Assembly: GCA_004293725.1 (NCBI GenBank)
Contig: REAW01000016.1
Span: 1-64,000 of the forward strand
From: Curvibacter sp.
GTDB taxonomy: Bacteria > Pseudomonadota > Gammaproteobacteria > Burkholderiales > Burkholderiaceae_C
Length of the DNA: 64,000 nt
Reading direction: 5' to 3'
Positions 12,422 through 62,960 of this stretch are shown here, one piece after another (the stretch's first letter is position 1; each line of letters opens with the position of its first letter). The notes beneath the pieces were generated by a model that was not told where the DNA came from, made no database searches, and saw only the letters and a list, made by a program, of their open reading frames with translations. Both the position numbers and the translations under genes were made by a program.

Positions 12422-13665
12422 GCCAGCAGCTCGCTGAACGGGATGTAGCGCACCGTGGCGCCGTACTGGATGGCTTCGCCCGGTGGCGTGTCGATCAGGC
12501 CGTCACCCCACACAGCGGACGTCAGCACGCCGGAACTCTGGTTGGTAAAGAGGTCCAGCCCACCTTGGTCGTTGCGGCGCACACGCAGGAATTCACGGCG
12601 TTTTTCGGCCCTGGGCCAATCAAAATCTGCGCGAGAAGCTATGCTTTTCATAGCAACATCTTGCACTCCCTGCAGCCTCAGCAGGAAGGGCCGCACCAGC
12701 AAAACAAAGGTCACAAAGCTGGACACGGGGTTGCCCGGCAGCCCAATGAAATGCGCAGCACCCACACGGCCATGTGCAAACGGTTTGCCGGGTTTGATGG
12801 CAATTTGCCAAAGATCGAGCTGCCCCAGGGACTGCACGGCGGGCTTGATGTGGTCTTCTTCACCCACCGAAACCCCGCCACTGGTCAGCACCAGGTCGTG
12901 GCTGGCTGCGGCATGCTGCAGGGCCTGCACGGTGGCGTCGAGCCGGTCGGGCACGATGCCCAGGTCGGTCACCTCGCACCCCAGACGGCGCAACATGGCA
13001 CTCAGGAAAAAACGGTTGGAGTTGTAAATGGCACCCGGCGGCATCTGCTCTGGCGGAACGGTGCCCGGCAAGACCAGCTCGTCGCCCGTGGAAAACAGCG
13101 CAACACGCGGCTTGCGCACCACCTGCAGCTGGGCCATGCCCACGCTGGCGGCGAGGCCCAGCGCGGCAGGCCCCAGGCGTGTGCCGGCGGCCAGCACCAC
13201 ATCACCACGGGACACATCCTCGCCCGAGCGGCGGATGTTTTGGCCGGGCAACGGAGTGCTGTTGATCTGAACACTGGGCACGGCCGCATCGGGTGCCTCC
13301 ACCACCGCGCACTCTTCCTGCATCACCACCGCGTCGGCCCCCGGGGGCACAGGCGCGCCGGTAAAAATGCGGGCCACAGTCCCGGGCTGCAAGGCAGTGC
13401 CCACGCTGCCGGCCGCAATGCGCTGTGACACCGGCAAAGCGCCCTGCGCAGCCAGCACATCGTCCACGCACACCGCATACCCATCCATGGCGCTGTTGTC
13501 GCACGGCGGCACCTGCAGGCCCGAGACAATGACCTGCGCCAGCACGCGGCCATCCGCATCGGTGGTGGACACAGACTCCGTCTGGCCCAAGGGCTGCACG
13601 CTGGCCAGCAGTTGGGCCAGCGCGTCGTCCAGCGGCAGCAGGGGTTTGCGGGGGGCGGTAGACAT
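12418..13665 (-). CDS. moeA: molybdopterin molybdenumtransferase MoeA
   Basis: Inserts molybdate into adenylylated molybdopterin, the last step of Moco synthesis, in the cytoplasm. The 415-residue product carries the family motifs PPCDNSAMDGYAV, the GTVARIFTGAPVPPGAD segment, LFSTGDELV and LTSGGVSVGEED, followed by the C-terminal domain IV. Between the catalytic core and domain IV it contains a peptide (core S-I-A-S-R-A) encoded by a copy of the dispersed palindrome at 12621-12660. This insertion keeps the frame open and lies at a domain junction, so the enzyme is probably functional. moaD follows with a 4-base overlap. Confidence 0.95.
   Translation of the reverse strand: MSTAPRKPLLPLDDALAQLLASVQPLGQTESVSTTDADGRVLAQVIVSGLQVPPCDNSAMDGYAVCVDDVLAAQGALPVSQRIAAGSVGTALQPGTVARIFTGAPVPPGADAVVMQEECAVVEAPDAAVPSVQINSTPLPGQNIRRSGEDVSRGDVVLAAGTRLGPAALGLAASVGMAQLQVVRKPRVALFSTGDELVLPGTVPPEQMPPGAIYNSNRFFLSAMLRRLGCEVTDLGIVPDRLDATVQALQHAAASHDLVLTSGGVSVGEEDHIKPAVQSLGQLDLWQIAIKPGKPFAHGRVGAAHFIGLPGNPVSSFVTFVLLVRPFLLRLQGVQDVAMKSIASRADFDWPRAEKRREFLRVRRNDQGGLDLFTNQSSGVLTSAVWGDGLIDTPPGEAIQYGATVRYIPFSELLA
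12621..12660 (-). repeat. dispersed palindromic repeat copy inside moeA
   Basis: On the minus strand the copy has the palindromic arm GCTATG-AAAAG-CATAGC followed by TTCTCGCGCA, the core shared with the other copies in this window. It is read in frame as part of MoeA (V-A-M-K-S-I-A-S-R-A). Confidence 0.75.
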
Positions 13666-13673
13666 GCAGTAAT

Positions 13674-13726
13674 TTGCTATGTTTTGTATAGCTTCTGGCG
13701 CATATCCTATGCGGTCCAGGAAGCTA
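13674..13726 (+). repeat. dispersed palindromic repeat, between moeA and thrC
   Basis: The plus strand has GCTATG-TTTTG-TATAGC then TTCTGGCGCA and a partly palindromic tail ending in CCAGGAAGC. It occupies most of the 78-base gap between thrC and moeA, two genes of the same orientation. Confidence 0.7.
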
Positions 13727-13743
13727 TTTCTTTCCTATGCTGC

Positions 13744-16508: not shown

Positions 16509-16526
16509 ATGCTTTTTAAGTAAAAA

Positions 16527-16574
16527 TATGTTCAGTCCACATGTATATTGCGCAGACAGCTATCAAATTCAGAG
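16527..16574 (-). repeat. dispersed palindromic repeat, between alaA and hom
   Basis: The minus strand has GAATTTGATAGCTG-TCTGCGCAATAT followed by a short AT-rich tail. It fills most of the 70-base gap between the AlaA-type gene and hom. It matches the core ATAGCT-nnn-nGCGCA of the other copies. Confidence 0.75.
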
Positions 16575-16578
16575 CGAA

Positions 16579-20788: not shown

Positions 20789-20866
20789 TTTAGCTATCGA
20801 TTCGATAGCTGCTCGCGCAATAGGAGAAAGGGCTGGAAGCCAGTTTGGCATCCAGCCCTTATCTTT
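20789..20866 (+). repeat. dispersed palindromic repeat acting as terminator between phoH and dnaB
   Basis: Tandem features: AGCTATCGATTCGATAGCT palindrome, the shared GCTCGCGCAAT core, then an inverted repeat AAGGGCTGGA (20829-20838) / TCCAGCCCTT (20851-20860) followed by a T-rich stretch. It lies between the convergent phoH-like and dnaB genes. The second hairpin could terminate transcription from the phoH side. Confidence 0.7.
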
Positions 20867-28963: not shown

Positions 28964-29785
28964 ATGCCCCAACGCACCGTTTTTTTCATATCCGACGGCA
29001 CTGGCATCACCGCCGAAACCTTTGGCAACGCCATCTTGGCCCAGTTTGAGATGAAGGCGCGCCACGTGCGACTGCCTTTTGTGGACACTGCAGACAAGGC
29101 ACACCAAGCGGTTCGCCAGATCAACCACACAGGGGTCGCTGACGGCAACAAACCCATCGTCTTCACCACGCTGGTGAACATGGAAGTGCTCAAAGTAATC
29201 CAGGAAGGCTGCCAAGGCATGCTACTGGATATGTTTGGGATGTTCGTGAACCCGCTTGAAGCCGAACTGGGCATCAAGTCCAACCACCGGATTGGGCGTT
29301 TCAGCGATGCGAGCAAAAGCCAGGAATACCAGGACCGCATTGAGGCCATTAACTTCTCACTGGCGCACGATGACGGCCAAAGCAATCGCGATCTGGAACA
29401 AAGCGACGTGATTCTCGTGGGAGTGAGCCGAAGCGGCAAAACCCCCACGTCACTCTACCTGGCCATGCAATACGGGCTGAAAGCATCCAACTACCCCCTG
29501 ATCCCCGAAGACTTTGAACGACGTCACTTGCCTCCGGCACTGATGCCCCACAAAGCAAAAATTTTTGGCCTGACGATTCAACCCGAACGTCTGAGCGAAA
29601 TTCGCAATGAACGGCGCCCCAATTCAAAGTACGCAGCGCTGGAAAACTGTCGCATGGAAGTGGCAGAGGCCGAAACCATGATGCGGCGTGCCGGTATCCG
29701 ATGGCTTTCAACCACAACCAAGTCAATCGAAGAGATCGCTACCACCATCTTGCAGGAGATTCACCCAGAGCGCCTTGTGTATTGA
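28964..29785 (+). CDS. ppsR: PEP synthetase regulatory protein (bifunctional kinase/pyrophosphorylase)
   Basis: DUF299 protein that inactivates PEP synthase by ADP-dependent phosphorylation of a threonine beside the catalytic histidine and reactivates it by phosphorolysis. The 273-residue product starts [18 protein letters not shown] and has the P-loop GVSRSGKT (about residues 153-160) and [14 protein letters not shown], all characteristic. It is divergent from its target gene ppsA, the common arrangement, so the intergenic region likely holds both promoters. Confidence 0.96.
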
Positions 29786-29814
29786 AGACGATAACCACAA
29801 GGAGTGATCAGAAC

Positions 29815-29863
29815 ACTATAGTTTCGATAGCTGCTTGCGCAATGAATATAAAGCCCGTAGCCT
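29815..29863 (+). repeat. dispersed palindromic repeat, between ppsR and sulP
   Basis: CTATAGTTTCGATAGCTG-CTTGCGCAATG followed by AATATAAAGCCCGTAGCC. It is the clearest intergenic copy and matches the in-gene copy in earP through the core and the following TATA and CCCG blocks. Confidence 0.8.
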
Positions 29864-29902
29864 CAATTGACCTAAAGTTGAACCACACGATGTCAACCCA
29901 CC

Positions 29903-31675
29903 GTGACGCCGCAGTCACTATTACCCGCCGTGACCACTAACGAGGTGACGCCGTCATACCGGCTATGGCTGAACCGCTGGGCTCCGGGTCTGGCAACACT
30001 ACTGAGCTACCGGCGCGCCTGGTTTGTCCACGACGTTATGGCCGGACTGGCCCTCTCCGCGATTTTGCTGCCGGTTGGTATGGGCTATGCCGAGGCAGCG
30101 GGTGTTCCGGCTATCCATGGGTTGTACGCCACCATCGTGCCACTGCTCGTCTATGCCATTTTTGGCCCCAGCCGGATCATGGTGCTGGGCCCAGACTCCA
30201 CGATGGCGGCTGTCATTGCCGCCTTGATTCTGCCGCTCTCCGGGGGAAGCGCCACGCACGCCATAGCTTTGGCCGGCATGCTGGCGTTGTTGTCAGGTGC
30301 GTTTGCATTGCTTATTGGTTTTGCTCGGCTGGGCCTGGTTGCAGACCTGCTATCCAAGCCGATTCGCATCGGCTTTCTCAACGCGATTGCCATCACCGTC
30401 ATCATCGGGCAATTGCCCAAAGTACTAGGCTTCAGCACTGTGACGGACAGTTTGCCCGCAACAACATGGCACATCGTCCAAGGCATTGCAGATGGGCAAG
30501 CGAAAGTAGTCGCATGCGTGCTGGGGGTTGGTTGCCTCGCTCTTGTACTGGTGCTCAAACACTACCGACCCCGGTGGCCTGGGATTCTCCTGGCGGTAGC
30601 GCTTGCCACAATCGCATCTGGCCTGCTGAACTTGGGAACTTCAGCCAACATTGCTTTGCTAGGCACGCTGCCACAAGGCTTGCCCAGCTTTGATATACCC
30701 CATGTCACGCTCAACGAGATCATCCAGTTGATTCCCGGCGCGGCGATCATTGCCTTGTTGTCATTTGCTGATACCAGCGTACTCTCACGTGCGCTCGCGC
30801 AACGCAGTGGCGTCGACGTGAACCAAAATCAGGAAATGATTGCCATTGGCGCAGCCAATATCGCAACCGGGCTGTTTCAGGGTTTTTCGGTGAGCAGCAG
30901 TACCTCACGCACACCGGTCGCAGAAGCGGCCGGTGCCATTACGCAAGTGGCGGGCTTGGTTGGCGCGTCAGCCATTGCACTGTTGCTGTTGTTGGCCCCC
31001 AACCTGATGGAGAATTTACCCAGCGCAACACTGGGGGCCATCGTAATAGCGGCCTGCCTTTCCTTTGCCGATTTCAAGAGCATGGCCCAGCTCTACCGAT
31101 TACGCAAGGCTGAATTTTCCTTGTCGATTGCCAGTTTCCTCGGCGTCGCATTTGTGGGGGTTATTGAGGGCATTTGCATTGCCATCGTGCTTTCACTCAT
31201 GGTGTTGGTCTGGAATACTTGGCACCCCTACTCCGCCATCTTGGTGCGCGTCGACGGCAGCAAGGGCTACCACGACAGCCGGCGCCACCCAGAGGGCCGG
31301 TCGATACCGGGGCTCGTTTTGTTTCGCTGGGATGCGCCGCTATTCTTTGCCAACGCAGAACTCTTCAAGCAGCAAGTACTTCAGGCCGTGAACAGTTCAA
31401 CCGAGCCCGTGCTTCGCGTCGTGGTGGCGGCAGATGCCATCACCGATGTGGACATTACAGCCGCCGAAGTGCTGGTTACTTTGCATAGTGAACTGAATGC
31501 GCAAGGCATAGCGCTTCGGTTTGCGGGCCTCAAAGGCCCCGCCAAAGATCACCTTCAACGCTACGGAACCTTGGACGTGATTGGCAGCGCCATCTTCAGC
31601 CCCACGGTCGGCAGCGCAGCCAACCAGTACCGGGCTGAACACCCGGTGGACTGGAAAGACTGGGACGAAGTGTGA
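29903..31675 (+). CDS. SulP family anion transporter with STAS domain
   Basis: A 590-residue inner-membrane SLC26/SulP transporter. Its membrane part carries the signatures LLPVGMGYAEAAGVPAIHGLYATIVPLLVYAIFG (start of the domain), the VLGPDSTMAAV segment and SFADTSVLSRALAQRSG. A C-terminal STAS domain (about residues 470-590, LVLFRWDAPLFFANAELFKQQV) follows. Substrates of the family include sulfate, bicarbonate and dicarboxylates; nothing here decides. The GTG at 29903 gives the longest plausible N-terminus, but there is no good Shine-Dalgarno and GTGs at 29930 or 29945 are alternatives. A dispersed repeat lies just upstream. Confidence 0.92.
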   Translation: MTPQSLLPAVTTNEVTPSYRLWLNRWAPGLATLLSYRRAWFVHDVMAGLALSAILLPVGMGYAEAAGVPAIHGLYATIVPLLVYAIFGPSRIMVLGPDSTMAAVIAALILPLSGGSATHAIALAGMLALLSGAFALLIGFARLGLVADLLSKPIRIGFLNAIAITVIIGQLPKVLGFSTVTDSLPATTWHIVQGIADGQAKVVACVLGVGCLALVLVLKHYRPRWPGILLAVALATIASGLLNLGTSANIALLGTLPQGLPSFDIPHVTLNEIIQLIPGAAIIALLSFADTSVLSRALAQRSGVDVNQNQEMIAIGAANIATGLFQGFSVSSSTSRTPVAEAAGAITQVAGLVGASAIALLLLLAPNLMENLPSATLGAIVIAACLSFADFKSMAQLYRLRKAEFSLSIASFLGVAFVGVIEGICIAIVLSLMVLVWNTWHPYSAILVRVDGSKGYHDSRRHPEGRSIPGLVLFRWDAPLFFANAELFKQQVLQAVNSSTEPVLRVVVAADAITDVDITAAEVLVTLHSELNAQGIALRFAGLKGPAKDHLQRYGTLDVIGSAIFSPTVGSAANQYRAEHPVDWKDWDEV

Positions 31676-31722
31676 GCAATAAGGCGTCGGACGAAGAATC
31701 CACGCCCCACATGAAGAAATCC

Positions 31723-32760
31723 TCAGGGCTGGATCAACAAGTCTGCAATAACCGGTTTGTGTTCAGACGCTCTGCTAGCGCCCACCACTGTTTTCTGTGG
31801 CGTAATTCCCTGACTCACCAAAACGTGGTCGATGCGGTAGAGGTCCAACTCTTGGCTCAAGGAGTGGCCATGGGTGTAACCCCAGCCAGTGCCGCTAAGT
31901 TCGAAAGCATCCTGCAGGCCGCCAAGCTTCAAGGTAGCCATGACAGGAGACTGGCCCGAAGCATTGAAGTCACCCAAAACAATTTGGGGAGTCTTGACCT
32001 GGCTTAGATCAACCAGCAGCGCCTGAGACTGCGCCAGTCGTTCGGAAAAATTATTTTTCCAAAGGTGGATGCCGCTGCGGAAATTGTCTTTGGTTGCCAG
32101 CAGAGCCCCTCTTGGCGACACAAAATGCACGCTGACCAAGTGCACCAATTTACCCGCAATTGTCGCGCTGCAATGCAAGTACGGTGCTGGTGTTTCACTT
32201 GCATCCAACTTGCCGGCTTTGCAGTTGTCTAGTGGGTAGCGGCTCGCCAACACGTACTGATCAAATGCCACTACATAAGGCAACCCAAACGCGGGCGGCG
32301 CCTCCGAGGGCGCAGAATTACTGCCTTCAGCAAGCCACTTTTGTGCATCTTGTAGTGCAACGATGTCGGGAGCATATTTTTCGATCTCAAGTTCGATCGC
32401 TTTGAAGCCCCCCTCCCTTTGCCGTGCAGACAGCGCTTTGATGTTGTAGCTCACTACCCGCACCTGCGTGCCCAGCAAAGTGGAGTCTGGCTTGGGATTC
32501 CAATGAAACTCCATCGTGAATGCGGCAAACAAGACCACATTGGCAAGGGATACAACCATCCACACAGGCCGGGTGAAGAATGAGACGACGGTAGCCACGC
32601 ACAAAGGCAGTAGCACCCAATAGAAGGGAACGAACCGCACCAGTTCCCCTAACCACAAGGGAGTAAGGACCTCACTTCGGACGATCAATAGGCCACCATG
32701 CAAAGCAAGAGCAGCCCAGACCACGAACACCACGCATGTTTTACGGAAAGCTATGTTCAA
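31723..32760 (-). CDS. membrane-anchored endonuclease/exonuclease/phosphatase family protein
   Basis: A 345-residue protein with three N-terminal hydrophobic helices (to about residue 85) and an EEP-superfamily domain. Motifs are VVSYNIK (metal/phosphate site), VALQDAQ where many relatives have LQE, VLGDFNA, YRIDHVLVS and SEHKPVIADL, where SDH is commoner. The catalytic geometry seems kept with conservative changes. Such proteins may cleave nucleic acid or phospholipid or inositol phosphates; the substrate is not predictable. It is convergent with sulP and lies downstream of the isomerase-like gene on the same strand. Confidence 0.85.
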   Translation of the reverse strand: MNIAFRKTCVVFVVWAALALHGGLLIVRSEVLTPLWLGELVRFVPFYWVLLPLCVATVVSFFTRPVWMVVSLANVVLFAAFTMEFHWNPKPDSTLLGTQVRVVSYNIKALSARQREGGFKAIELEIEKYAPDIVALQDAQKWLAEGSNSAPSEAPPAFGLPYVVAFDQYVLASRYPLDNCKAGKLDASETPAPYLHCSATIAGKLVHLVSVHFVSPRGALLATKDNFRSGIHLWKNNFSERLAQSQALLVDLSQVKTPQIVLGDFNASGQSPVMATLKLGGLQDAFELSGTGWGYTHGHSLSQELDLYRIDHVLVSQGITPQKTVVGASRASEHKPVIADLLIQP

Positions 32761-32797
32761 TTTAACAGCTCCAAACTACCCTAAAGCCGGATGGTGG

Positions 32798-33613
32798 TTA
32801 AGCTAACCGCTCCCTCAGAAGGCCCAGCATGGCGACATTGAGTTCCCACGCATCAGACACCGGTGCTTGACTGTACGGGACGGTGGGCGTGTAAGGAATA
32901 GGACCAAACTCCGGTGTCAGCGTCATGGTTTTGGCGCCGACCGCACGGCGCAAATCGACAATGCGTTGCCACCAAGCCAGGTGGCTTTCCAACGCACTGG
33001 CCGACTCCGGCGCGCGGAAGTCTCCCACCTGCGGACCCTGTGCGTGGCCCACCCTGGCGTGGATGTGGCGTACATGCGGAAAAGTGGCCTCCAGGTTTTC
33101 CGGCTGGTCTTCCAGCAGGGTTTCGCACACACAACACCAATGCGACAAATCTGCCGTGAGTTCCAACTCCGGCAACTCACGCAAATACGGCAGTAGCAAC
33201 ATGGGATGCGCGGTGAACCGGCTGCGGTGAATTTCATGAAAAATAGGAACCCCATGGGCACGCGAGATGCTTTGGGCGAGTGCGATGAGTTGGCGGTTTT
33301 GGGCGGGCGTGTAAATGTCCCGGCCTGTGTGCGAGTTCACAAACAAAGGCTTTGCAGCGCAAGCGTTGTTGAGATACGTGCCCAACGCGGCGCGGTGCAT
33401 CTCAAACTTGGGATGCATCACTGTTTCCCATTGCTGGGCGATCAATGCCAAACCAGCCTTGGCAATGCGGTCCAACCAATCAGCACGCTGGGCGTTGTCA
33501 AGTGGCAAAGACATTTCGATGCCATCAAAGCCGGCCGCTTTCACCTTGTCGACAAACACCTGAGGTGCCAAGTCGCTGCTGCCCCAATGCGGGGCAAATA
33601 TCAAAATATCCAT
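32798..33613 (-). CDS. sugar phosphate isomerase/epimerase family (xylose-isomerase-like TIM barrel)
   Basis: A 271-residue cytoplasmic TIM-barrel protein. The barrel starts MDILIFAPHWGS and AAGFDGIEMSL. Likely metal ligands sit in PIFHEIHRSR, LTADLSHWCC, RHIHARVGHAQGP and LTPEFGPIPY. The fold is shared by xylose isomerases, hydroxypyruvate isomerases, inosose dehydratases and endonuclease IV, so the substrate is open. The four putative ligand segments are complete, which argues for an active enzyme. No sugar operon accompanies it. Confidence 0.85.
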   Translation of the reverse strand: MDILIFAPHWGSSDLAPQVFVDKVKAAGFDGIEMSLPLDNAQRADWLDRIAKAGLALIAQQWETVMHPKFEMHRAALGTYLNNACAAKPLFVNSHTGRDIYTPAQNRQLIALAQSISRAHGVPIFHEIHRSRFTAHPMLLLPYLRELPELELTADLSHWCCVCETLLEDQPENLEATFPHVRHIHARVGHAQGPQVGDFRAPESASALESHLAWWQRIVDLRRAVGAKTMTLTPEFGPIPYTPTVPYSQAPVSDAWELNVAMLGLLRERLA

Positions 33614-33781
33614 GGTCGGGCCCTTCTAAATCGCCAAGCGATGGCTTGCATTGTGTACGCGAAGCAAACCAAAAAGATGCTCAACTGTATTGAATCAACG
33701 CCCGTGTTCACCTAGCGTGCAAAGAAATTTCAACAACACTCAGCGGTGAGCCCGGGTTCGCGGGCGGCCAGATGCCGCGCT

Positions 33782-35026
33782 TCATAGCGAACAGTCTGGC
33801 ATCAACACATCGGGCGCAGGTTTGGGGATGGCGATTTGGGCCAGGCCACGCTCCAACGATGATGCGCTGGGGTTTTCCACAAACACACAGCGTTTGCCGG
33901 TGCGCTTGCAAAAGTCTTTAACGCGCCAGTAGGCGTTGTGGCTGATGCAACCCGTCTGGCAAATCACCAGGTCGGCCGCGGCCAAGTTGGCATCCAGCAC
34001 CGAGGCGTTGTCCTCTATGCCGCCGTCGTGGTGCGCAAATTTTCCGCCCACGCGCTCCACCACATCGCGGTAGTTGGCAATGTTGCCGCTGCGTCCGCCC
34101 ACACACAACACCACCTTTTGGTGGAGCTGCACAACCACCGCCGGAACGTCTTGCAAGGCCGTAGGCTCGGTAACGGAACGCTCCATAACCACACGCTCGG
34201 CCAACGCGCGCTCCGCCACGGCCAGACGGCGCCGCAGATCCCCGTTTTGGGTTTCCAGCTCTTGCTGGCGCTGGGCCATTTGGTCCACCCGCTTTTGCAG
34301 GCGCTGCTTGTCTTCCAGCTGCGGAATGGAGGCTTCCAAGGCCTCCAGATCCTGCGCCATGAAGGCCAAGCGGCTGTCCTTGGCAATGCTTTCCGCACGG
34401 GCCTGCAACAAGTCGGCGTTGAGTCGGTCAACGTCCGCAGTTTTTTGCGCCATCACGCGGGTAATGCGCTCCTGGACTTTGCCAAGCTCACGCCCCAGCA
34501 CGGCATTTTCTTCGGACAATTCGTTAAATCGGGCCATCTCCAAGCGCACACCGGCACCCGCTTGGTGCTGGAACATGTGCAGGTCTTTGCAAATGGCCTC
34601 CTGCAGCGGAACATCACAACGCGAATGGCTCAGCGCCGCCCAAAAGGCACCCGCCACATCACCCGCCTTCAGGTACTTGATCCACAACTCCGCCACGGCC
34701 AGGCTGCTCTTGGCTGCTTTGAAGATTTGGATCTCGCGGGCATACCGCGCATTCAGCTCGGCCTGCATCAGCTCCGATAGCTTGCAGCGGCGCGCCGCCT
34801 CGGACACGGCACCGGCATGCACTTCGTAGTCGTTGGCAACTACATTTCCGCCAAGCGCCTTGTTGACCATGCGGCGCAAGGTATCCAGGGGCAAACTCAC
34901 CCCCACCAAGGGGCAATGGCAATGGTGGTCCAGGTCCCAAATGCGCCGGCGGCGCGAGCCGGCCGCAGCAGGCGCCGCATGCTCGCGGTGGCAATGGATG
35001 TCTGGACTAGGCAGGTTTTTCAGCAT
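33782..35026 (-). CDS. DUF2325 domain protein with central coiled coil
   Basis: A 414-residue protein of unknown function. The N-terminus is His/Cys-rich (DIHCHREH; DHHCHCPLVGV), a likely metal-binding site. Residues ~150-290 are strongly coiled coil (Glu/Gln/Arg/Leu heptads). The C-terminal ~110 residues form the DUF2325 domain: VVLCVGGRSGNIANYRDVVERVGGKFAHHDGG, then DLVICQTGCISHNAYWRVKDFCKRTGKRCVF. The ATG at 35026 has GGAGG seven bases upstream; the longer frame to 35092 is encoded by a dispersed repeat and is rejected. It is the last gene of a minus-strand trio starting at a Fur-like palindrome, facing away from bacterioferritin, so an iron-linked role is inferred. Confidence 0.85.
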   Translation of the reverse strand: MLKNLPSPDIHCHREHAAPAAAGSRRRRIWDLDHHCHCPLVGVSLPLDTLRRMVNKALGGNVVANDYEVHAGAVSEAARRCKLSELMQAELNARYAREIQIFKAAKSSLAVAELWIKYLKAGDVAGAFWAALSHSRCDVPLQEAICKDLHMFQHQAGAGVRLEMARFNELSEENAVLGRELGKVQERITRVMAQKTADVDRLNADLLQARAESIAKDSRLAFMAQDLEALEASIPQLEDKQRLQKRVDQMAQRQQELETQNGDLRRRLAVAERALAERVVMERSVTEPTALQDVPAVVVQLHQKVVLCVGGRSGNIANYRDVVERVGGKFAHHDGGIEDNASVLDANLAAADLVICQTGCISHNAYWRVKDFCKRTGKRCVFVENPSASSLERGLAQIAIPKPAPDVLMPDCSL

Positions 35027-35040: not shown

Positions 35041-35092
35041 ATGCTATAGTTTCAATAGCTTTTTGCGCAGTATCTGTAAGGGCTAGTGGCAC
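35041..35092 (+). repeat. dispersed palindromic repeat upstream of the DUF2325 gene
   Basis: GCTATAGTTTCAATAGCT-TTTTGCGCAG then TATCTGTAAGGGCTAG. It lies in the 75-base gap between the 73-residue gene and the DUF2325 gene and would be transcribed in the 5' region of the latter. Confidence 0.8.
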
Positions 35093-35101
35093 TTTTGACC
35101 C

Positions 35102-35323
35102 TTAATTGGCGGATTCGCCCGAAGTCCCGTCCAGCATCTGCTGCTGGGCCAGGCGGGACCGCCACGCCAACACCAGACGCTTACCGCTCAGGCGCTGCGG
35201 TTTGCCTTCTCGGACTTCTGGCTCGGGTGCACAGCACGCACACATGGAACGGTAGGCGCTGCGTTTGCCATGGCGTACCGCCGGCTTGTGTCCGTCTAGC
35301 AAGGCCTCTACCGCTGACGTCAT
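35102..35323 (-). CDS. small uncharacterised protein, 73 aa
   Basis: Not recognised. The predicted product is basic and begins MTSAVEALLDGHKPAVRHG, with a Cys cluster C-A-C-C near residue 28 and an Arg/Lys/Gln-rich second half (LVLAWRSRLAQQQM). Its ATG overlaps the stop of the 104-residue gene by four bases (35320-35323), strong evidence that both are translated and coupled. A Shine-Dalgarno is not obvious, as expected for coupling. It lies in the minus-strand trio 104 aa / 73 aa / DUF2325 behind the Fur-like palindrome. The Cys cluster may bind a metal, but this is speculation. Confidence 0.6.
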   Translation of the reverse strand: MTSAVEALLDGHKPAVRHGKRSAYRSMCACCAPEPEVREGKPQRLSGKRLVLAWRSRLAQQQMLDGTSGESAN

Positions 35324-37599: not shown

Positions 37600-39044
37600 A
37601 GTTGCGCACCCGTCAAAAAATCGGCCTGGTGCTGACAGCGGCGGGCGCCGTGGCCGGATTGCTGTGGCCCTTGTGGGGCCACGGTGAGGCAGACCTCTCC
37701 GGTGCCGTGCAAGGTGAGCTCACCGCTGGCGAGGCTACTGCCTTTGCCACCGGGCGCAACGCCTTCTCCATGCCCTTCCCCACTTTGGACGACGAGGAGC
37801 GCACGCGCTTTGCCGTGGGCAACTCCTTCTTCCGCCGCAACTGGGTGGAAGCGCCCGCCTCCACCACCGCGCGCGATGGCCTGGGCCCGCATTTCATCGC
37901 CCGCTCCTGCGCCGGCTGCCATGTGCAAGACGGCCGCGGCGCGCCACCCGATTTCCGCAAAGGTCTGAGCGAGCCGCCGGTGGCACTCCTCATGCGCCTG
38001 TCGGTGCCCGGCACTGGTGCCCACGGCGGCGTGGTGCCTGACCCGGTCTATGGCGACCAGCTCAACAACGCCGCCATCCAGGGCGTGCAGCCGGAGGGCC
38101 AGGTGCGCATTCGCTACCAGACATTGCGCGGCCAGTTTGCCGACGGCACGCCCTACACCTTGCGCAAGCCCCTCTACAGCCTGACGAACCTGGCCTACGG
38201 CCCGCTGGCGCCCGGCGCCATGATCAGCCCGCGCATTGCGCCACAAATGGCCGGCGTGGGCCTGCTGGAAGCGATTCCCGTGTCTGACATTCTGGCCAAT
38301 GCCGCGATGCAGGCCGCCAGTGCGGGCCCCATCAAGGGCCAACCCAATTACGTGTGGGATGACTTTGCCCAGGCCCAGCGGGTAGGCCGTTTTGGCTGGA
38401 AGGCGAACCAGGCCAGCATCGCCAGCCAGACCGCTGGCGCCTTCCTTGGCGACATCGGCATCACCTCCACCCAGCACCCGGATGAGGCCTGCACGCCCGC
38501 ACAGAAAGACTGCCTGGCCGCCCCCCGTGGCGCGCAGGGCAAGGCGCCGGAGATCGATGACCGCACCCTGTCCGACGTGATCTTCTACCAAGCCGTACTG
38601 GCCCCGGCGGCGCGGCGCAATGTAAACGACGCCAAGGTGCTGCGCGGCCAGGCCCTGTTTGCCCAAGCCCAATGCAGCGTCTGCCACCGGCCCAGCTACA
38701 CCACCGGAGCAGCGCCCTTCCCGCATCTGTCCAGCGCCAAAGTGCAGGGCCTGAAAATCTGGCCCTACACCGACCTGTTGTTGCACGACATGGGCCCCAA
38801 CCTGGCCGATGGCCGCCCTGACTTTGCGGCAAATGGCCACCAATGGAAAACGCCGCCGCTCTGGGGCGTGGGTCTGGTCCATGACGTCAACGGCCATCGC
38901 CGCCTGCTGCACGATGGCCGGGCCAATGGCGTGCTAGAAGCGATTCTGTGGCACGGTGGCGAGGCGCAAGGCGCCAAGAATCAAGTGTTGCAACTCAATG
39001 CCCGCGACCGGCAAGCGCTGGTGGCTTTTGTGGAGTCTTTGTGA
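37596..39044 (+). CDS. di-haem c-type cytochrome, DUF1111/DHOR family
   Basis: A 482-residue periplasmic oxidoreductase with an N-terminal signal or anchor helix (LVLTAAGAVAGLLWPL) and two haem-binding motifs, C105-AG-C108-H109 and C360-SV-C363-H364. Its length and the segments RDGLGPHFIARSC and DLLLHDMGPNLADG are typical of DUF1111 (di-haem oxidoreductase, sometimes called thiol oxidoreductase). The reaction is unproven; electron transfer linked to periplasmic iron oxidation or reduction is plausible. It overlaps both neighbours by four bases, so three proteins are made from coupled reading frames. Confidence 0.93.
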   Translation: MKLRTRQKIGLVLTAAGAVAGLLWPLWGHGEADLSGAVQGELTAGEATAFATGRNAFSMPFPTLDDEERTRFAVGNSFFRRNWVEAPASTTARDGLGPHFIARSCAGCHVQDGRGAPPDFRKGLSEPPVALLMRLSVPGTGAHGGVVPDPVYGDQLNNAAIQGVQPEGQVRIRYQTLRGQFADGTPYTLRKPLYSLTNLAYGPLAPGAMISPRIAPQMAGVGLLEAIPVSDILANAAMQAASAGPIKGQPNYVWDDFAQAQRVGRFGWKANQASIASQTAGAFLGDIGITSTQHPDEACTPAQKDCLAAPRGAQGKAPEIDDRTLSDVIFYQAVLAPAARRNVNDAKVLRGQALFAQAQCSVCHRPSYTTGAAPFPHLSSAKVQGLKIWPYTDLLLHDMGPNLADGRPDFAANGHQWKTPPLWGVGLVHDVNGHRRLLHDGRANGVLEAILWHGGEAQGAKNQVLQLNARDRQALVAFVESL

Positions 39045-40093
39045 AACGACGCACCCTTCTGACTTATATGCATTTTGGGGCTCTAGCGCTTATGGAAACT
39101 GCGCAAGCAGCTACCAAAATCATAGCTACTCCACAGGTGGCGGCACCATTCATCTCGTCTGGCCAAATGGTGCAGGGTCTGCTGACCCGGCACCTGCAAC
39201 CCGGTGCGGCCGCCCTGCAGCTTGCAGCGCAGGCGCTGGTGCAGTCCTTGGCGCAAGGCAAGGCACCTTGGGCCCAGCACCGCCCGCTGTGGGTGGCCAC
39301 CATGCTGGCCTGGGAGCGGCTGGCGGCAGTAGCCGTGGGGCCACTGCTGGAGCGGCGCTCGGCTCGCGCCATTGATTTTTGGCCCACCCGCCCGGCCCAA
39401 ATCCAGCGCCTGCTGGAGAGTGGCAGCGTCACCAGTGTGCAGCAGCTCGAGACCGTTGGCGCCACTGCACGGGGCCTGCCCGCACTGGAGTGGCTGCTCT
39501 GGAAGACCGATGGCAATAGCCATACGCAGCTCTACGCCAGCGTGCTGGCACAGCAAGTGCTGGCCGAGAGCCAAGTCCTGCAAGCGGGCTACCAGAACCT
39601 GGCCAGCACCGAGCGTGAAGAGGAAGACGCCTGGGCCTTGTACGGCGATTGGTTTGGCCAAGCCGTGGGCGGGCTGGACCAGTTGCGTATCAAAAAGATG
39701 GTGCCTGACACACGGGGCAAAGACAGTACGCCCTGGGTGCGCGGCGTGAGCGGCCAGACGGCAGCCGCCTGGCTGGCACAGGCCCAGGGGCTGCAGGCCT
39801 TTTTGGTGGGCTCGCCAGCCGCACAGGCGGCCACCCAAGCCGCCACGCCGGGCTGGCCGGTGGCCGGCAGCCTCAACAGCCTGCTGCAGGGGCGCGGCCA
39901 TTTGCGCCACAGCCTGACCCTGCAGGCACGCACCGCCACGATGCTGCGGACGGTTCAGATGGCACGTCCCGGCAACGCCGCTTCGGTACGCGCGGCGCAA
40001 GTGGCGCTGGCCCAGCTCTCGGCGCAAGCCAATGCCTTGGCGGGCGATGTGCTGGCAATCACCATGGGGTTTACCGATGCCGATGGCGATTGA
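39041..40093 (+). CDS. imelysin family protein, second copy
   Basis: A 350-residue imelysin-like periplasmic protein. The GTG at 39041 overlaps the stop of the cytochrome gene (GTGA). Sequences matching the family are LPALEWLLWKTDG (in place of GxHxxE) and LRIKKMVPDTRGKD. The N-terminus (MKRRTLLTYMHFGALALMETA) works as a signal peptide but is largely encoded by a reversed copy of the dispersed palindrome at 39069-39131, reading T-A-Q-A-A-T-K. The motif change suggests a different metal site from the first imelysin. The DUF1513 gene overlaps its 3' end by 17 bases. Confidence 0.9.
   Translation: MKRRTLLTYMHFGALALMETAQAATKIIATPQVAAPFISSGQMVQGLLTRHLQPGAAALQLAAQALVQSLAQGKAPWAQHRPLWVATMLAWERLAAVAVGPLLERRSARAIDFWPTRPAQIQRLLESGSVTSVQQLETVGATARGLPALEWLLWKTDGNSHTQLYASVLAQQVLAESQVLQAGYQNLASTEREEEDAWALYGDWFGQAVGGLDQLRIKKMVPDTRGKDSTPWVRGVSGQTAAAWLAQAQGLQAFLVGSPAAQAATQAATPGWPVAGSLNSLLQGRGHLRHSLTLQARTATMLRTVQMARPGNAASVRAAQVALAQLSAQANALAGDVLAITMGFTDADGD
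39069..39131 (-). repeat. dispersed palindromic repeat inside the second imelysin gene
   Basis: The minus strand reads GTAGCTATGATTTTGGTAGCTG-CTTGCGCAG, then CATAAGCGCTAGAGCC. It overlaps the signal-peptide codons of the imelysin gene and lies antisense to it. Confidence 0.75.
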
Positions 40094-48051: not shown

Positions 48052-48281
48052 TGCGCAACACCATGACAGACCCACACCATGGTGCATTCATTTCACCCGA
48101 TCGCACCGCCCATCCTGAAGTGAACGGGTTCGCGGAACCGCCGACGTTTGTGCCGGGCTGGAAGGGGGTGGTGCCCTCCAGCGCACTGCTGGGCATTCGC
48201 CAGGCCATAGAAATAGAGCACAACGGCCAGCGCTACCGGCTTCAAAGTACCAAATCGGGCAAGCTGATCCTTACCAAATAG
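48051..48281 (+). CDS. hemP: hemin uptake protein HemP
   Basis: A 76-residue protein whose C-terminal half (IEIEHNGQRYRLQSTKSGKLILTK) is the HemP family signature. HemP/HmuP family members act in hemin or iron uptake, in some bacteria as an activator of the hemin receptor gene. No haem receptor gene is in the window. The ATG at 48051 overlaps the exbD stop (TAATG); a second ATG at 48063 is possible. Confidence 0.92.
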   Translation: MRNTMTDPHHGAFISPDRTAHPEVNGFAEPPTFVPGWKGVVPSSALLGIRQAIEIEHNGQRYRLQSTKSGKLILTK

Positions 48282-48287
48282 GCACAA

Positions 48288-48345
48288 AACAGCTGCCAGC
48301 GCATATCTGTATTGCGCGAACAGCTATGTTTTCTATAGCGTTTTA
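48288..48345 (-). repeat. dispersed palindromic repeat, between hemP and the GlcG-like gene
   Basis: The minus strand reads ACGCTATAGAAAACATAGCTG-TTCGCGCAATAC then AGATATGCGCTGGC. It lies between convergent genes hemP and the GlcG-like gene and may influence termination. Confidence 0.75.
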
Positions 48346-48361: not shown

Positions 48362-48769
48362 TTACAAGCCAAGGGCAGCGATGCCTGCCTTGGCAATCTG
48401 GGCGTCCTCATTGGACTTCACACCGCTCACGCCCACCGCTCCCAGACACAGACCGTCTTTGAGAATAGGCACGCCACCCTCCAACATACCCTCGAGGTTG
48501 GGTGCGCTCAAAAAAGACACACGCCCACCATTGATCATGTCCTCATAGACCTTGCTTTCACGGCGACCCATGGCGGCCGTTCGGGCTTTGCCGGGGGCGA
48601 TGTAAGAAGAAATAGGTGCCGCGCCGTCCAGCCGCTGAAAGGACAGCAGATGTCCGCCATCGTCCACGATGGCGATGCTCACTGCCCAATTGTTTTTAAG
48701 CGCTTCCGCTTCGGCGGCCGCGGCAATGGCCTTGACATCGGAGAATTCGAGAAAAGCTTTGGTTTTCAT
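48362..48769 (-). CDS. HbpS/GlcG-type haem-binding domain protein
   Basis: A 135-residue protein of the GlcG/HbpS fold. It has WAVSIAIVDDGGHLLSFQRLDGA, AKAGIAAL and EDMINGGRVSFL-type family segments, and no signal peptide. Members of the family bind haem (HbpS of Streptomyces) or have unclear roles beside glycolate oxidase (GlcG). The hemP/tonB neighbourhood favours haem or iron binding, but the gene is convergent and has its own promoter. The ATG at 48769 is chosen because the longer frame upstream is not family-like. Confidence 0.85.
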   Translation of the reverse strand: MKTKAFLEFSDVKAIAAAAEAEALKNNWAVSIAIVDDGGHLLSFQRLDGAAPISSYIAPGKARTAAMGRRESKVYEDMINGGRVSFLSAPNLEGMLEGGVPILKDGLCLGAVGVSGVKSNEDAQIAKAGIAALGL

Positions 48770-50134: not shown

Positions 50135-51649
50135 TCAGTCCTGCAGCTCAAACACCGCAATACTTTCTACGTGCGCTGTGTGGGGGAACATGTTGACTAC
50201 CCCCCCCTTGCTACAACGGTAACCTGCCTCTTGCACCAGCACACCCGCATCGCGTGCGAGCGTCGCGGGGTTGCAACTGACGTAAACAATGCGCTTGGGT
50301 GGAGTCCACCCGTTGCGTAGCGCGGGTTGCTGGTGCAGGGCGGCGAGGGCTTGCACCAGAGAGAAGGCACCTTCACGGGGCGGATCGACCAACCACTTGT
50401 CGGCTGCACCATCGCCAATCAACAACTCGGGAGTCATCTCAAACAGGTTGCGCGCTACAAAATGAGTAGCTGCTAGCGCAGACTTTACATGGGAAAGGGT
50501 CGTTTTTCCTTCGGAATTCGCAGCCATGTTCAGTGCCAAGTTCTCGCGCGAACGAGCTACCAACACTTCGGCCCCTTCCACACCCAGCACTTCACGTGCT
50601 TGGGTGGCCAGCGGCAGCGTAAAGTTGCCCAAACCGCAAAACCAGTCAATCACACGCTCAGTCTTCTGCACGGCCAACAGGCCCAATGCGCGTGACACCA
50701 GCACGCGGTTGATATGGGGGTTGACCTGCGTGAAGTCGGTCGGACGAAACGGCATGGTGATGCCAAAGTCGGGCAACTGGTAGGCCAATTGCCCCGTGGT
50801 GTGGCCTGGCAACTCGTCCAAGCGATGCACGGTATCCAGCCCTTTGGGCTGCAGCCACCATTGCAAACCGGGGTTACTGGCCGCAAACTGGCGCAGGCGG
50901 TTCAAGTCTGCATCAGACAAGGGCTCCAAATGGCGCAGCACCATGGCAATTACTTCGCCCGCACCACCATTGGCGCCAGCTGTCGGCGCCATATCCCCCA
51001 TGGCCAGCTCGATCTGGGCCAGCGTCTCCACAGCGTCCATGGACTCAATCAAACGGCGCAGGGGGACCAGCATGGCACTCACATGGGGCGCCAGCACATG
51101 GCATTCCTTCATATCTGCCACGTAGCGGCTTTTGCGCTCATGGAATCCAATGAGTACTTGGCCCTTTTTTCGCACGTGTCGCACCGACAGGCGTGCGCGG
51201 TAGCGATAGCCCCAAGCCGGCCCCTCGATGGGGCGCAGGATGTTGTCAGGTTTGACCTTGCCTATGTGCCAAAGGTTGTCCTCCAGCACGCGCTGCTTCA
51301 CCGCTACCTGGGCACTTACATGCAAGTGCTGCATCTTGCAGCCGCCACAGGCGCCTTCATGCAGGCCAAAGTGCGGGCAGGCAGGGCGTACGCGTTGGGA
51401 AGACTCTTGGTGAATTGCGGTCAGGGTGCCTTTTTCAAAGCTGCTTTTGCTGCGGTGGATTTGGGCGCTCACCACCTCAAACGGCAATGCGCCATCAATA
51501 AACACCACCTTGCCATCGGGCCGGTGGGCAACCCCTTGGGCTTCAAGGTCCAGGGATTTAACGCGTAGCCATCCGTCAGGCAGTGCAGCTTCGGCAGGAA
51601 TACAGAGAACAGTGGGGGAAATCTTTTTAGGGGAAATAGCGTCACTCAT
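50135..51649 (-). CDS. rlmD: 23S rRNA (uracil-1939-C5)-methyltransferase RlmD
   Basis: SAM-dependent methyltransferase with an iron-sulfur cluster. The 504-residue product has a TRAM domain, the cluster cysteines in [15 protein letters not shown], the SAM motifs ([17 protein letters not shown]), VDPPREG and the catalytic-Cys motif [15 protein letters not shown]. The methylated base is in the peptidyl-transferase region of 23S rRNA. Within the Rossmann domain a segment S-A-L-A-A-T-H is encoded by a reversed copy of the dispersed repeat (50454-50495). The gene follows rpoS on the same strand with a 47-base gap. Confidence 0.95.
50454..50495 (+). repeat. dispersed palindromic repeat inside rlmD
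   Basis: The plus strand reads CGCTACAAAATGAGTAGCTG-CTAGCGCAGAC, then TTTACATGGG. It is antisense to rlmD and is read on the coding strand as [10 protein letters not shown]. Confidence 0.65.
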
Positions 51650-51696: not shown

Positions 51697-52731
51697 TTAC
51701 ATCAAAAATTCGCGCTTGATACCCCGACGGGCGAGATACCTCTTGAGCTTGAACAAGGCTTCGTTCTGCACCTGGCGCACACGTTCACGGGTTAGACCCA
51801 GCCGGTTGCTGAGTACATCCAGCGTTTCCGGCTCACAGTCGTGCAATCCAAAACGACTTTCCAGAATCTCTCGCTCACGTGGCGATAGGGTCGCAATCCA
51901 CTCTTCCAGCAAAACGTCGACCTCATGGGCCTGCGCCTGCGCCTGAGGGTCCAGCGCCAACTCGTCCACCAAACTGTCCCCCAGCGTATGCTCTTCCCCA
52001 CCAGGGTCCAGCGTAGCATCGAGCGAGCGCGGTGCCTCGGACATGGCCAACAGGTCGGCCACATCGGGCGCATCGCGCCCCAGCAACGCCGCAATGTCTT
52101 CCACGCGAATCCCCTCCGGGCGCTGGGCAACCAGCGCGGCATCGTTCTCCAGTGCCCTGCGGGCACGCAGCACGTGCTGCACGTCGCGCACCACGTTCAC
52201 GGGCAGGCGCACGGCCCGCCCCTGGTACATCAGCGCGCGGTCCACCGACTGGCGAATCCACCAGGTGGCATAGGTGGAGAAACGGAAACCGCGCTCGGGT
52301 TCGAACTTGTCTATCGCGTGCATCAGACCCAAGTTGCCCTCTTCAATCAGGTCAGACATGGGCACGCCTCGCCCGTTGTAGCCTTTGGCAATGCTGACCA
52401 CCAAGCGCAGGTTGTGCTCAATCATGCTTTGCCGTGCGGCAAAGTCGCCCGCGCGGGCCCGCGTGGCCATCGCAAATTCCTCTTCAGGCGTAAACAGGTT
52501 GGTGCGGCGCACACCGCGCAGGTACACCGCCAGCGCGTCGGCCACGTCCTCGCCGATGGCAGGCGGAAGAGCCTCAGAAGACCAACCGTCAGGGGCGGTA
52601 GATGCTATGCTTTCAGGAGCTTGTTGCGCATACTGGACTGGGTCCGCAGCCATATTTTGTGCCCAATCGCCTTCCGCAGGGCTGAGACGTTTGGAAGCGT
52701 CATCCGGTGCGGGTGGGCGGGGCTTTTTCAC
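51697..52731 (-). CDS. rpoS: RNA polymerase sigma factor RpoS
   Basis: Stationary-phase/general-stress sigma factor, 344 residues. Regions 1.2-4.2 are evident: [25 protein letters not shown], the 2.4/2.3 segment [18 protein letters not shown], and the 4.2 helix-turn-helix [27 protein letters not shown] at 52731 starts the gene, eight bases after the nlpD stop, with AGG before it. The variable N-terminal tail (residues ~25-50, [12 protein letters not shown]) is partly encoded by a dispersed repeat at 52604-52645. Classic order surE-pcm-nlpD-rpoS. Confidence 0.96.
52604..52645 (+). repeat. dispersed palindromic repeat inside rpoS
   Basis: The plus strand reads GATGCTATGCTTTCAGGAGC then TTGTTGCGCATAC. 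It is antisense to rpoS and read on the coding strand as [10 protein letters not shown]. This is the most degenerate in-gene copy. Confidence 0.55.
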
Positions 52732-56460: not shown

Positions 56461-56492
56461 CGCAGAGGAAAAATTATAACCGGAAAAGCAGC

Positions 56493-58418: not shown

Positions 58419-58442
58419 GCACTAACTCTCCATGTGAACAAG

Positions 58443-58470: not shown

Positions 58471-58480
58471 GCTGGGTGGG

Positions 58481-58556: not shown

Positions 58557-58572
58557 AAACCGAAACAGAATT

Positions 58573-59759: not shown

Positions 59760-59777
59760 GGCAGGATTGTGGCACGC

Positions 59778-61763: not shown

Positions 61764-61820
61764 GGGACGCTATTGTGCTTGCTCCTTGAGCGAGCCAGTA
61801 CCGCATGGACAATAGCCGCC

Positions 61821-62960
61821 ATGCAATGGGATATTTTCTGCAAAGTCATCGACAACTTTGGCGATATTGGTGTGTGCTGGCGCTTATGTGCCGACTTGGC
61901 GAGGCGCGGCCATGCGGTACGCCTGTGGGTCGACGACACCAGCGCCCTTGCCTGGATGGCGCCCGGTGCGGTGAACGGCCACTGGCCCGGCGTGCAGGTG
62001 CACGACTGGGCGGACGCGCACAACCCCAGTGTGCTGAAAGAACTGCCTCCCGCCGACGTGTGGATCGAAGGCTTTGGCTGCGAGATCGATCCTGAATTTA
62101 TAGCTGCTCGCGCAATGGATATGGCGCCCGGTGGCCAAAATGGTCTCAAACCTCCTGTGTGGATCAATCTGGAGTACCTGTCGGCAGAGGCCTATGTGGA
62201 ACGCTGCCATGGCCTGCCCTCGCCCGTGATGCAAGGCCCGGCTCAGGGCTGGACCAAACACTTCTACTACCCCGGCTTCACAGCACGCAGCGGCGGGCTG
62301 CTGCGCGAGGCGAATTACCAATTGCGCAGGGCCTCGTTTGATGACAGCGCACGCAGCATCTGGCTTGCACGGCATGGCATCGTTTGGCAGGGTCAGCGCC
62401 TGGTCTCACTGTTTTGCTACGAACCTCCTGAGTTGGTAGCCCTGCTGCAAGGGCTGATGAAGGGCGCAGCACCCACGCTGCTGCTTGTCACACCTGGCCG
62501 GTCCCAGCGCGCTGTGCAGACGGTCCTGGCGCAGTTGAAGCTGCCAAACACAGGTAGTGGCGCACTCGCGCTGCACTGGCTGGAGCCGCTGCCCCAGACA
62601 GACTTTGACGAGCTCCTGTGGGCCTGCGATCTGAATCTGGTGCGCGGGGAGGATTCCCTGGTGCGCGCAATTTGGGCAGGAAAGCCATGGTTATGGCAAA
62701 TCTACCCGCAGGACGATGGTGCGCACGCCACCAAGCTCATTGCCTTGCTGGACCAGATGCAGGCGCCTCCGTCGTTGCGCGAGGCGCACTTGGCGTGGAA
62801 CGGCCTGATCGATACAACCCACCAGGGGCACCCAACGCCAGACTGGAGTGCGATGCCACTTGCTGAGTGGTCGCTTGCGGCCCATCGTTGGCGTGAAAGT
62901 CTGCTGCAGATAGAAGATTTGGGAAGCCAGCTCATCGGCTTTGTCCAGAAAAAAAGATAA
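61821..62960 (+). CDS. earP: EF-P arginine rhamnosyltransferase EarP
   Basis: Inverting glycosyltransferase that transfers rhamnose from dTDP-rhamnose to Arg32 of EF-P. The 379-residue product has the family N-terminus WDIFCKVIDNFGDIGVCWRL and YYPGFTARSGGLLRE, then FCYEPPELVALLQGL and HWLEPLPQTDFDELLWACDLNLVRGEDSLVRAIWAGKPWLWQIYPQDDGAH. ATG 61821 is the family start; upstream in-frame codons lack similarity. It contains a short insertion (F-I-A-A-R-A-M-D-M-A) encoded by a dispersed repeat. efp follows 106 bases downstream. Confidence 0.95.
   Translation: MQWDIFCKVIDNFGDIGVCWRLCADLARRGHAVRLWVDDTSALAWMAPGAVNGHWPGVQVHDWADAHNPSVLKELPPADVWIEGFGCEIDPEFIAARAMDMAPGGQNGLKPPVWINLEYLSAEAYVERCHGLPSPVMQGPAQGWTKHFYYPGFTARSGGLLREANYQLRRASFDDSARSIWLARHGIVWQGQRLVSLFCYEPPELVALLQGLMKGAAPTLLLVTPGRSQRAVQTVLAQLKLPNTGSGALALHWLEPLPQTDFDELLWACDLNLVRGEDSLVRAIWAGKPWLWQIYPQDDGAHATKLIALLDQMQAPPSLREAHLAWNGLIDTTHQGHPTPDWSAMPLAEWSLAAHRWRESLLQIEDLGSQLIGFVQKKR
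62097..62136 (+). repeat. dispersed palindromic repeat inside earP
   Basis: TTTATAGCTG-CTCGCGCAATG followed by GATATGGCGCCCGG. It is in the sense direction and read as F-I-A-A-R-A-M-D-M-A. Beyond the core it also shares the TATA and CCCG blocks of the intergenic copy at 29815. Confidence 0.75.

Follow-up and report, generated by a model that had tools for sequence, protein, structure and literature searches.

Strong sequence preference in DNA uptake is placed in two bacterial families in the available text of PMC7811141, which describes uptake sequences as not inserted, as evolving by point mutation under a molecular drive that arises from biased uptake, and as scarce in constrained coding sequence. 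The DNA uptake sequences (DUS) are presented in the accessible part of PMC2397512 as conserved, located where the core genome is permissive and also serving as terminators, and many of them are argued there to appear by recombination rather than by point mutation. Uptake sequences also have dialects, as stated in the available portion of PMC3630211. Here we describe a 67-bp motif that recurs in a 64 kb stretch of the Curvibacter sp. assembly GCA_004293725.1 (contig REAW01000016.1, positions 1 to 64,000; hereafter the window) and throughout the genome that holds it (G000; 2.95 Mb in 59 contigs, 83% complete). The other genomes compared, mostly drafts, carry further G handles. Our analysis suggests that the motif is probably an uptake signal, i.e., a DNA recognition motif of 67 bp whose copies build up in place through substitutions favored by molecular drive.

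A sequence-only reading of the window had proposed a dispersed, palindrome-containing family of eleven copies that occur on either strand, between genes as well as within them. This family is real, as all 11 places, inspected on both strands, hold the motif. We scored them with a profile (R1) trained on 33 G000 copies picked by a core pattern. Seven are strong matches of 41.9-46.7 bits (20790, 35041, 29813 and 62086 on the + strand; 16509, 48278 and 39063 on the - strand), two are moderate (50453 + and 12604 -), and two are too weak on score alone (13673 + and 52624 +). Five of the 33 training copies come from the window and match by construction, and 35041 and 39063 are strong matches outside the seed set. 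The weak copy at 13673 is backed by orthologous copies in G001, G007, G015 and G020 (16.5-29.3 bits), and the one at 52604 by an orthologous copy in G007 alone (11.5 bits).

Across G000 the core pattern gave 34 matches, compared with 0 for the reversed pattern, and R1 gave at least 150, all with E <=3.6e-5. Within 869,750 bases of own DNA (29% of G000, picked for holding copies and hence enriched), 162 matches of at least 10 bits were found, 161 of them distinct, against 0 in the same DNA reversed, i.e., the matches go beyond chance expectation. With 551 versus 0 matches in the relative G065, discussed below, the motif is over-represented genome-wide on both strands, as is expected of DUS and of the uptake signal sequences (USS). 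The copy numbers given per genome are lower bounds, as the best 150 candidates, or the best 24-32 in large searches, were scored, and genomes with other dialects are undercounted because the search model was trained on G000.

The anatomy of the motif was analyzed in the 147 distinct G000 copies of at least 15 bits. All 147 align without a gap over 67 bp, from -16 to +50 around ATAGCTG, and the edges are sharp, with almost no information left 2-3 bases beyond either end. The motif carries about 57 bits in total, a value reached equally by the 113 copies outside the seed-picking pattern, while 14-15 bits are required for locating 150-350 sites in G000. The consensus is roughly AAATTTGCTATnAAWTTnATAGCTGCTTGCGCAATATCCACGAGGGCTAGAGGCCnAWTTTGACTCnAAA, in which two bases alternate at -4 and +39/+40 (W), 0 (R), -8 and +22 (Y) and +26 (S), and -7, -1 and +37 are free. 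The closest pair among the 147 copies agrees at 56/72 positions (<=78% identity), and the best match to the consensus also reaches 56/72. The core had been described as a palindrome followed by GCGCA. The palindrome is present, as a 17-bp dyad (GCTATnRAWTYnATAGC) in the left part, but the unit extends over the whole 67 bp. A second hairpin tail, also described earlier, occurs at convergent gene ends such as 20790 but is not part of the general consensus.

At the arm pair -9/+1 of the dyad, 83 copies have A-T, 29 C-T, 22 A-G and 0 C-G, which means that there is no compensation, and 1000/1000 shuffles hold as many or more Watson-Crick pairs. The pair -8/0 is similar (980/1000), and -7/-1 and -5/-3 are paired less than, or like, the shuffles. 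The eight strongest dependencies are all between adjacent bases, and the A-tracts avoid TpA (+39/+40 is TT in 93 copies, AA in 36 and TA in 3). Because the main variable arm pair is without compensating changes, the strongest dependencies are between neighbors and the A-tracts avoid TpA, we infer that the motif is read as a double helix by a protein. The dyad together with the A-tracts suggests recognition by several subunits, over a length of about six helical turns.

The position of the copies relative to genes, which were called with our own simple caller based on codon usage, bears on how they arose. Among the 147 copies, 54 lie wholly in genes, 53 across a gene end and 40 in gaps, and the in-gene share of 54/147 compares with 81% expected (4029/5000 random places). 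In G065, 25/113 copies are in genes versus 79% expected (3969/5000 random places), so the under-representation in coding sequence that is looked for in DUS and USS is found in both genomes. Same-strand copies within G000 genes use one frame in 19/22 cases and opposite-strand copies one frame in 26/32, and in G065 one phase accounts for 6/8 same-strand and 17/17 opposite-strand copies. As most of the other frames are interrupted by stop codons of the motif itself, this bias mainly reflects that the genes are intact.

The peptides encoded by the motif fall within recognizable proteins. Compared with Protein Data Bank (PDB) chains, MutL, alanine racemase and LpxB span the motif with no inserted residue, mannose-1-phosphate guanylyltransferase has 2 or 3 residues more, and the EarP peptide at the copy is 8 residues longer than the solved EarP 5nv8, whereas a 67-bp insertion would add 22. 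Copy-containing Pfam domains exceed the length of their profiles by 3 (TruB), 4 (TilS), 6 (Maf), 7 (GcvP), 10 (a DNA polymerase III alpha-like protein), 12 (ThiL) and 15 residues (CobD). NadD is 32 residues longer than its generic Pfam profile and is not evidence for an origin in place, and in two further proteins compared with Pfam the copy lies outside the domain or at its edge. Origin in place by substitution, as known from DUS and USS, was found in mutL, alr, lpxB and moeA. Judging from these sequences, the in-gene copies are written by point changes and not by jumping DNA. Ancient insertion followed by decay was rejected for the conserved enzymes; it is possible for some intergenic sites.

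In a synonymous-recoding test, 54/54 in-gene copies beat all 1000 recodings, but this test is biased because the copies were chosen by score, and we therefore rely on the comparison of mutL between genomes. In 25 genomes the MutL segment GEALAAINSIADCAILSRASG hardly varies, with G171 the most divergent, and 23/25 genomes have no indel at this site (site 1), G005 having one codon fewer and G143 four more. In G000 the codons GCT-ATT-AAT-TCC-ATA-GCT-GAT-TGC-GCA-ATA spell the motif. The copy-free G014, in which one residue differs, has GCC-ATC-AAC-GCC-ATT-GCC-GAC-TGC-GCC-ATC. Motif-bearing relatives mostly use motif-spelling codons in mutL, and nine motif-free genomes encode nearly the same peptide with GC-rich codons. 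Using a matrix that leaves the mutL stretch out, the 15 genomes with at least 7 copies score 27-62 at site 1 in 14/15 cases and 18.9-70 at site 2, which is the best-scoring place in the linker, in 15/15. The nine copy-free genomes do not exceed 2.7 at site 1 and -22 at site 2, and G023, in which one copy was counted, reaches -29.8 and -31.9. The Spearman correlation between mutL score and copy number is 0.69 for site 1 and 0.89 for site 2 (n=25), with p-values that should not be taken at face value due to species kinship, the best-place choice of site 2 and the differently capped copy-count searches.

Two copies are found in mutL (L106) and three in one DNA polymerase III alpha-like gene (L108, 10962-14117), which is presumably dnaE2. 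DUS are biased towards genome-maintenance genes, and the copies in the polymerase gene and mutL possibly reflect a DUS-like bias of this kind. Same-strand copies at gene starts (L016, L019 and L023, around 1500, and L093, 62-2320) encode an apparent signal peptide, e.g., ...FALVFIAACAISTGAMAQ..., and the motif may by accident provide secretion signals.

The motif exists in dialects. Position +11 is C in G000, A in G065, which belongs to another genus of the family and has the core TTGAGCA..ATGGGCTG, and T in G026. A was present at +11 in 20/20 G065 copies, even though these had been found with a C-type model, compared with 0/147 in G000, and T in 35/46 G026 copies. Allowing up to 3 mismatches, the G065 dialect has 551 matches in its own genome of 4.6 Mb; 16 other genomes have 0-7 each, and reversed sequence has none. 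In 400 kb of G065 picked for matches, 113 copies with 67.7 bits were found against 0 in the reversed sequence; the commonest 12-mers are pieces of the motif. Identical 31-base cores recur in G065.

Matches at E <=1e-9 were obtained in 15/31 genomes of the genus sample, G000 included. In the family sample 33/150 genomes match, and in the order sample 2/200, namely G000 and one genome from the same family; these searches score the best candidates per genome only, and distant dialects would escape them. In the copy-free G028, two models detected neither a copy nor an unseen dialect over 400 kb, and a dialect-free dyad gave 0 matches there versus 1 in the reversed control. A near-full consensus had 0 matches in 84,980 species genomes, from which records near the window were possibly left out, and a shorter consensus matched five stretches, four in three Rhodoferax genomes and one in an unclassified Comamonadaceae genome. 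With regard to the rarity in newly acquired DNA that is looked for in DUS and USS, BLAST with the consensus matched 4/72,556 plasmid records, all Comamonadaceae, and 1/50,697 records of a phage collection (E 0.01), counts that depend on how many Comamonadaceae plasmids and phages the collections contain. Over 6.7 kb, G000 is matched at 85% by a contig of Rhodoferax sp. TS-BS-61-7, from which we take the organism to be probably a Rhodoferax. The sequence-only reading had placed such sequences in Comamonadaceae and anticipated that site presence varies between relatives, and both expectations held.

Within the G007 chromosome, the best 150 copies are spread as by chance (coefficient of variation, CV, 0.99; Kolmogorov-Smirnov, KS, p 0.29). 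Strand polarity is not clear there, as the best strand switch was reached by 13/200 random sets and the origin was not located. Four same-strand copies occur within 4 kb on this chromosome (G007:C1:627882-631566).

The set of sites changes from one relative to another in the region that is syntenic with the window, whose copies are collected in Table 1. At the moeA-like site, the segment length difference is 0 in 9/9 aligned species, whether the motif is present or not. The copy at 16509 (16513) scores at least 40 bits in G000, G001, G007, G020 and G030 and 12-25 bits in four others, and G004, G018 and G028 have unrelated sequence instead, which is of comparable length, being 2 to 13 bp shorter. 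The right half of the copy at 20790 folds as a terminator-like hairpin; six relatives have this copy about 30 bp away, and G004, G012, G018 and G028 have no copy and a shorter gap. Orthologous copies were found for 39063 in G015 (25.7 bits) and G001 (12.9 bits), for 48278 in G001 (17.1 bits) and G007 (29.5 bits), by alignment and R1, and for 50453 in G029 (35.3 bits) and G007 (17.6 bits). At 50453, G000 is 12 bp longer than G001, G007 and G029. The copy at 52604 lies upstream of the Pfam domains of the sigma-70-family gene.

Table 1. Copies of the 67-bp motif in the window (gene coordinates and strands in brackets).
Feature	Coordinates	Strand	Evidence
Copy in moeA-like gene (12418-13665 -)	12604..12656	-	R1 13.2 bits; Pfam MoeA domains
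Weak copy between moeA-like and threonine synthase-like genes	13673..13737	+	R1 8.1 bits, E 0.14; Pfam
Copy in 70-bp gap between aminotransferase and homoserine dehydrogenase genes	16509..16578	-	R1 44.6 bits; Pfam
Copy between convergent PhoH-like and DnaB-like genes	20790..20856	+	R1 46.7 bits; Pfam
Copy in gap ahead of sulfate permease-like gene	29813..29879	+	R1 44.7 bits; Pfam
Copy ahead of opposite-strand DUF2325 gene start	35041..35109	+	R1 45.4 bits, non-seed; Pfam
Copy just past gene 37596-39044, before gene 39167-40093 (both +, own calls)	39063..39128	-	R1 41.9 bits, non-seed
Copy in gap before stop of gene 48362-48769 (-)	48278..48341	-	R1 43.7 bits
Copy in, and antiparallel to, RNA uracil-5-methyltransferase-like gene (50135-51649 -)	50453..50518	+	R1 16.8 bits; Pfam
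Weak copy in, and antiparallel to, sigma-70-family gene (51697-52731 -)	52604..52669	+	R1 5.3 bits, E 1.1; Pfam
In-frame copy in EarP gene (61821-62960 +)	62086..62153	+	R1 43.9 bits

The gap at 48278-48341 is a convergent gene end where G001 and G007 recast the motif as a terminator-like hairpin (ATAGCTGCTCGCGCAC..GTGCGCTGGCAGCTAT). Synteny is broken at 29785-33849, as a segment with the sulfate permease-like gene is absent here in G001, G007 and G020. The copies at 29813 and 35041 are at or beyond the edges of this segment, and none is within it.

The motif has a fixed length, arose in place in conserved genes, has dialects, is restricted to one family among the sampled genomes, avoids coding sequence and turns over between relatives. 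We favor the uptake-signal reading because uptake sequences share the in-place origin by point mutation, the scarcity in coding sequence and the dialects. The information far above what finding the sites requires and the even spread over the G007 chromosome also speak for it. Under this reading, cells would import DNA by the type IV pilus/Com pathway, and a putative surface receptor would bind the motif. Fragments that match better would be imported and recombined more often, by which motif-improving mutations would spread, and the motif would accumulate at places where proteins and RNAs allow it and would mark DNA as self. More cautiously, and as a conclusion we hold to be just on the likelier side of even, this would be a third bacterial family with self-recognition of transforming DNA, having a signal roughly fivefold the length of known ones and dialects that switch at defined bases between lineages. 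A third-family uptake signal of 67 bp would imply that the receptor assembly reads DNA over about six double-helical turns.

Several observations weigh against an uptake signal. We know of no precedent for one of 67 bp. ComEC was matched in 23/26 genomes, and no ComEC match was found in G026, which is 99% complete and has 15 strong copies and its own dialect, nor in the motif-bearing G012 and G020 (88% complete). For G026 this may represent a recent loss, an assembly gap or evidence against uptake. A pilin of the ComP_DUS family is present in 21/25 genomes, whether or not they have the motif, and the motif-bearing G012, G013 and G030 lack it. Furthermore, G171 has 26 copies and is without the motif at mutL site 1 (score -35), the near-invariant arm pairs -11/+3 and -10/+2 are slightly over-paired (17 and 23 of 1000 shuffles reach the observed value), and one G065 pair is alike at 62/67 positions with similar flanks, which means that local duplication happens. 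Some intergenic sites also differ between relatives by indels, and the intergenic copies may involve indels, insertion included.

As a candidate receptor, the ComP_DUS pilin was set aside as uninformative, since it is present regardless of the motif. In G000 the gene for this minor pilin comes after an apparent pilY1 gene. In the open-licence literature searched, we found no paper on an uptake sequence in Comamonadaceae, Burkholderiales or Betaproteobacteria (Acidovorax included), the titles and opening lines of abstracts mention nothing on the motif, six literal 15-mers of it were not found, and no paper on miniature inverted-repeats came up for three genera. The repeats mentioned in the available text of the Rhodoferax ferrireducens genome paper are CRISPR only (PMC2755013).

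As the main alternative, the copies could be sites of a nucleoid or chromosome-organizing protein, maintained by selection for an intracellular role, in which a 67-bp duplex is read and the specificity drifts between lineages to give dialects. The duplex-type readout, with its dyad, TpA-avoiding A-tracts and uncompensated pairs -9/+1 and -8/0, would suit such a protein, as would the presence of the motif in G026 without a ComEC match, and the dialects also fit a co-evolving binder. However, copies on the G007 chromosome are spaced as expected by chance and have no clear strand polarity, sites turn over between relatives, the information is far above location needs and half of the genus sample is without the motif, so we regard this explanation as unlikely, if credible. 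We consider it very unlikely that the motif is a mobile or once-mobile small repeat, similar to repetitive extragenic palindromic (REP) sequences, miniature inverted-repeat transposable elements (MITEs) or Rickettsia palindromic elements (RPEs), which was moved by a transposase such as a REP-associated tyrosine transposase (RAYT) and later fitted to host genes. Dispersal on both strands, the palindrome, the enrichment in gaps, the shorter gap of the four relatives without the copy at 20790, a Y1_Tnp gene in G000 and the near-duplicate pair in G065 are consistent with mobility. Yet MutL, alanine racemase, LpxB and moeA contain no insertion, there are no recent duplicates among the 147 copies, and the near-full consensus is unmatched in the species genomes searched, with the proviso given above on records near the window. 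Y1_Tnp genes are found in 24/25 genomes, copy-free ones included, and are absent from G171 with its 26 copies. The suggestion of the sequence-only reading that the family is a REP/RAYT-type mobilized element, with a RAYT to be sought in genomes of high copy number, is thus not borne out, the most informative arm pairs being without covariation as well. For the in-gene copies, a mobile REP or MITE was ruled out by the lack of inserted residues, of compensation and of a link to Y1_Tnp.

An abundant fixed template, e.g., a reverse-transcribed or excised single strand, might instead be recombined over partly matching places with the length unchanged. Such copying would account for the fixed length and the in-place origin, and identical 31-base cores recur in G065, but the free positions (-7, -1 and +37), the two-base positions and a best consensus match of 56/72 indicate that there is no master copy, which makes this highly improbable. 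A family of structured RNAs, riboswitches or terminators is scarcely credible. Terminator-like hairpins do occur at 20790 and, in relatives, at 48278, but at gathering thresholds the only Rfam hits across the window are two tRNAs, a permissive search over the 251 bases surrounding 20790 yields just two sub-threshold microRNA (miRNA) matches, the pairs -9/+1 and -8/0 are without compensation, and in-gene copies lie on either strand. A single Y1_Tnp-like gene with a 286-aa open frame is located at G000:C51:11424-11747, and similar single genes are found in most relatives, with the motif or without it.

If the motif is indeed an uptake signal, a third family with uptake preference would be found in environmental bacteria, and this would suggest that such systems are missed because searches use words of 9-12 bp, the search range given in the accessible part of PMC3630211. 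Dialects, receptor coevolution and molecular drive would then become testable in free-living bacteria, and gene flow would be predicted to follow the dialects. Whatever the function, a 67-bp motif of about 57 bits that is present at at least 150 sites and spelled into mutL by synonymous codons demands explanation, and annotation of its copies as repeats or MITEs would mislead.

Among known systems, REP sequences and bacterial interspersed mosaic elements (BIMEs) with RAYT (Y1_Tnp) resemble the motif in being short, palindrome-containing, dispersed and in many cases intergenic, whereas the motif is not inserted in genes, has arms without compensation and a copy number independent of Y1_Tnp genes. 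RPEs are insertions that lengthen the protein; they are likewise found in frame within genes, but the motif peptide replaces native residues. The sites of chromosome-organizing proteins (matS, Noc sites and KOPS) are also chromosome-wide motifs read as a duplex, while the motif differs by its even spread without clear polarity, its strong turnover and its far higher information. The Neisseriaceae DUS, with the receptor ComP, are alike in their hundreds of copies on both strands, in-place evolution, dialects, preference for permissive core-genome places and double role as terminators, as far as the available parts of PMC2397512 and PMC3630211 describe them. They differ in having 10-12 bp, compared with 67 bp, about 57-68 bits and a lower density here, and in belonging to another bacterial family. 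The USS of Pasteurellaceae carry AT-rich flanking tracts. They are not inserted, evolve by point mutation and are under-represented in constrained coding sequence, as described in the available text of PMC7811141, and differ from the motif in being much shorter, with a 9-bp core (PMC3630211, available portion), and in sharing no core sequence with it by eye. As the short core of about 9-12 bp that characterizes both systems is not found here, we describe the motif as one that works like DUS and USS and do not file it as either.

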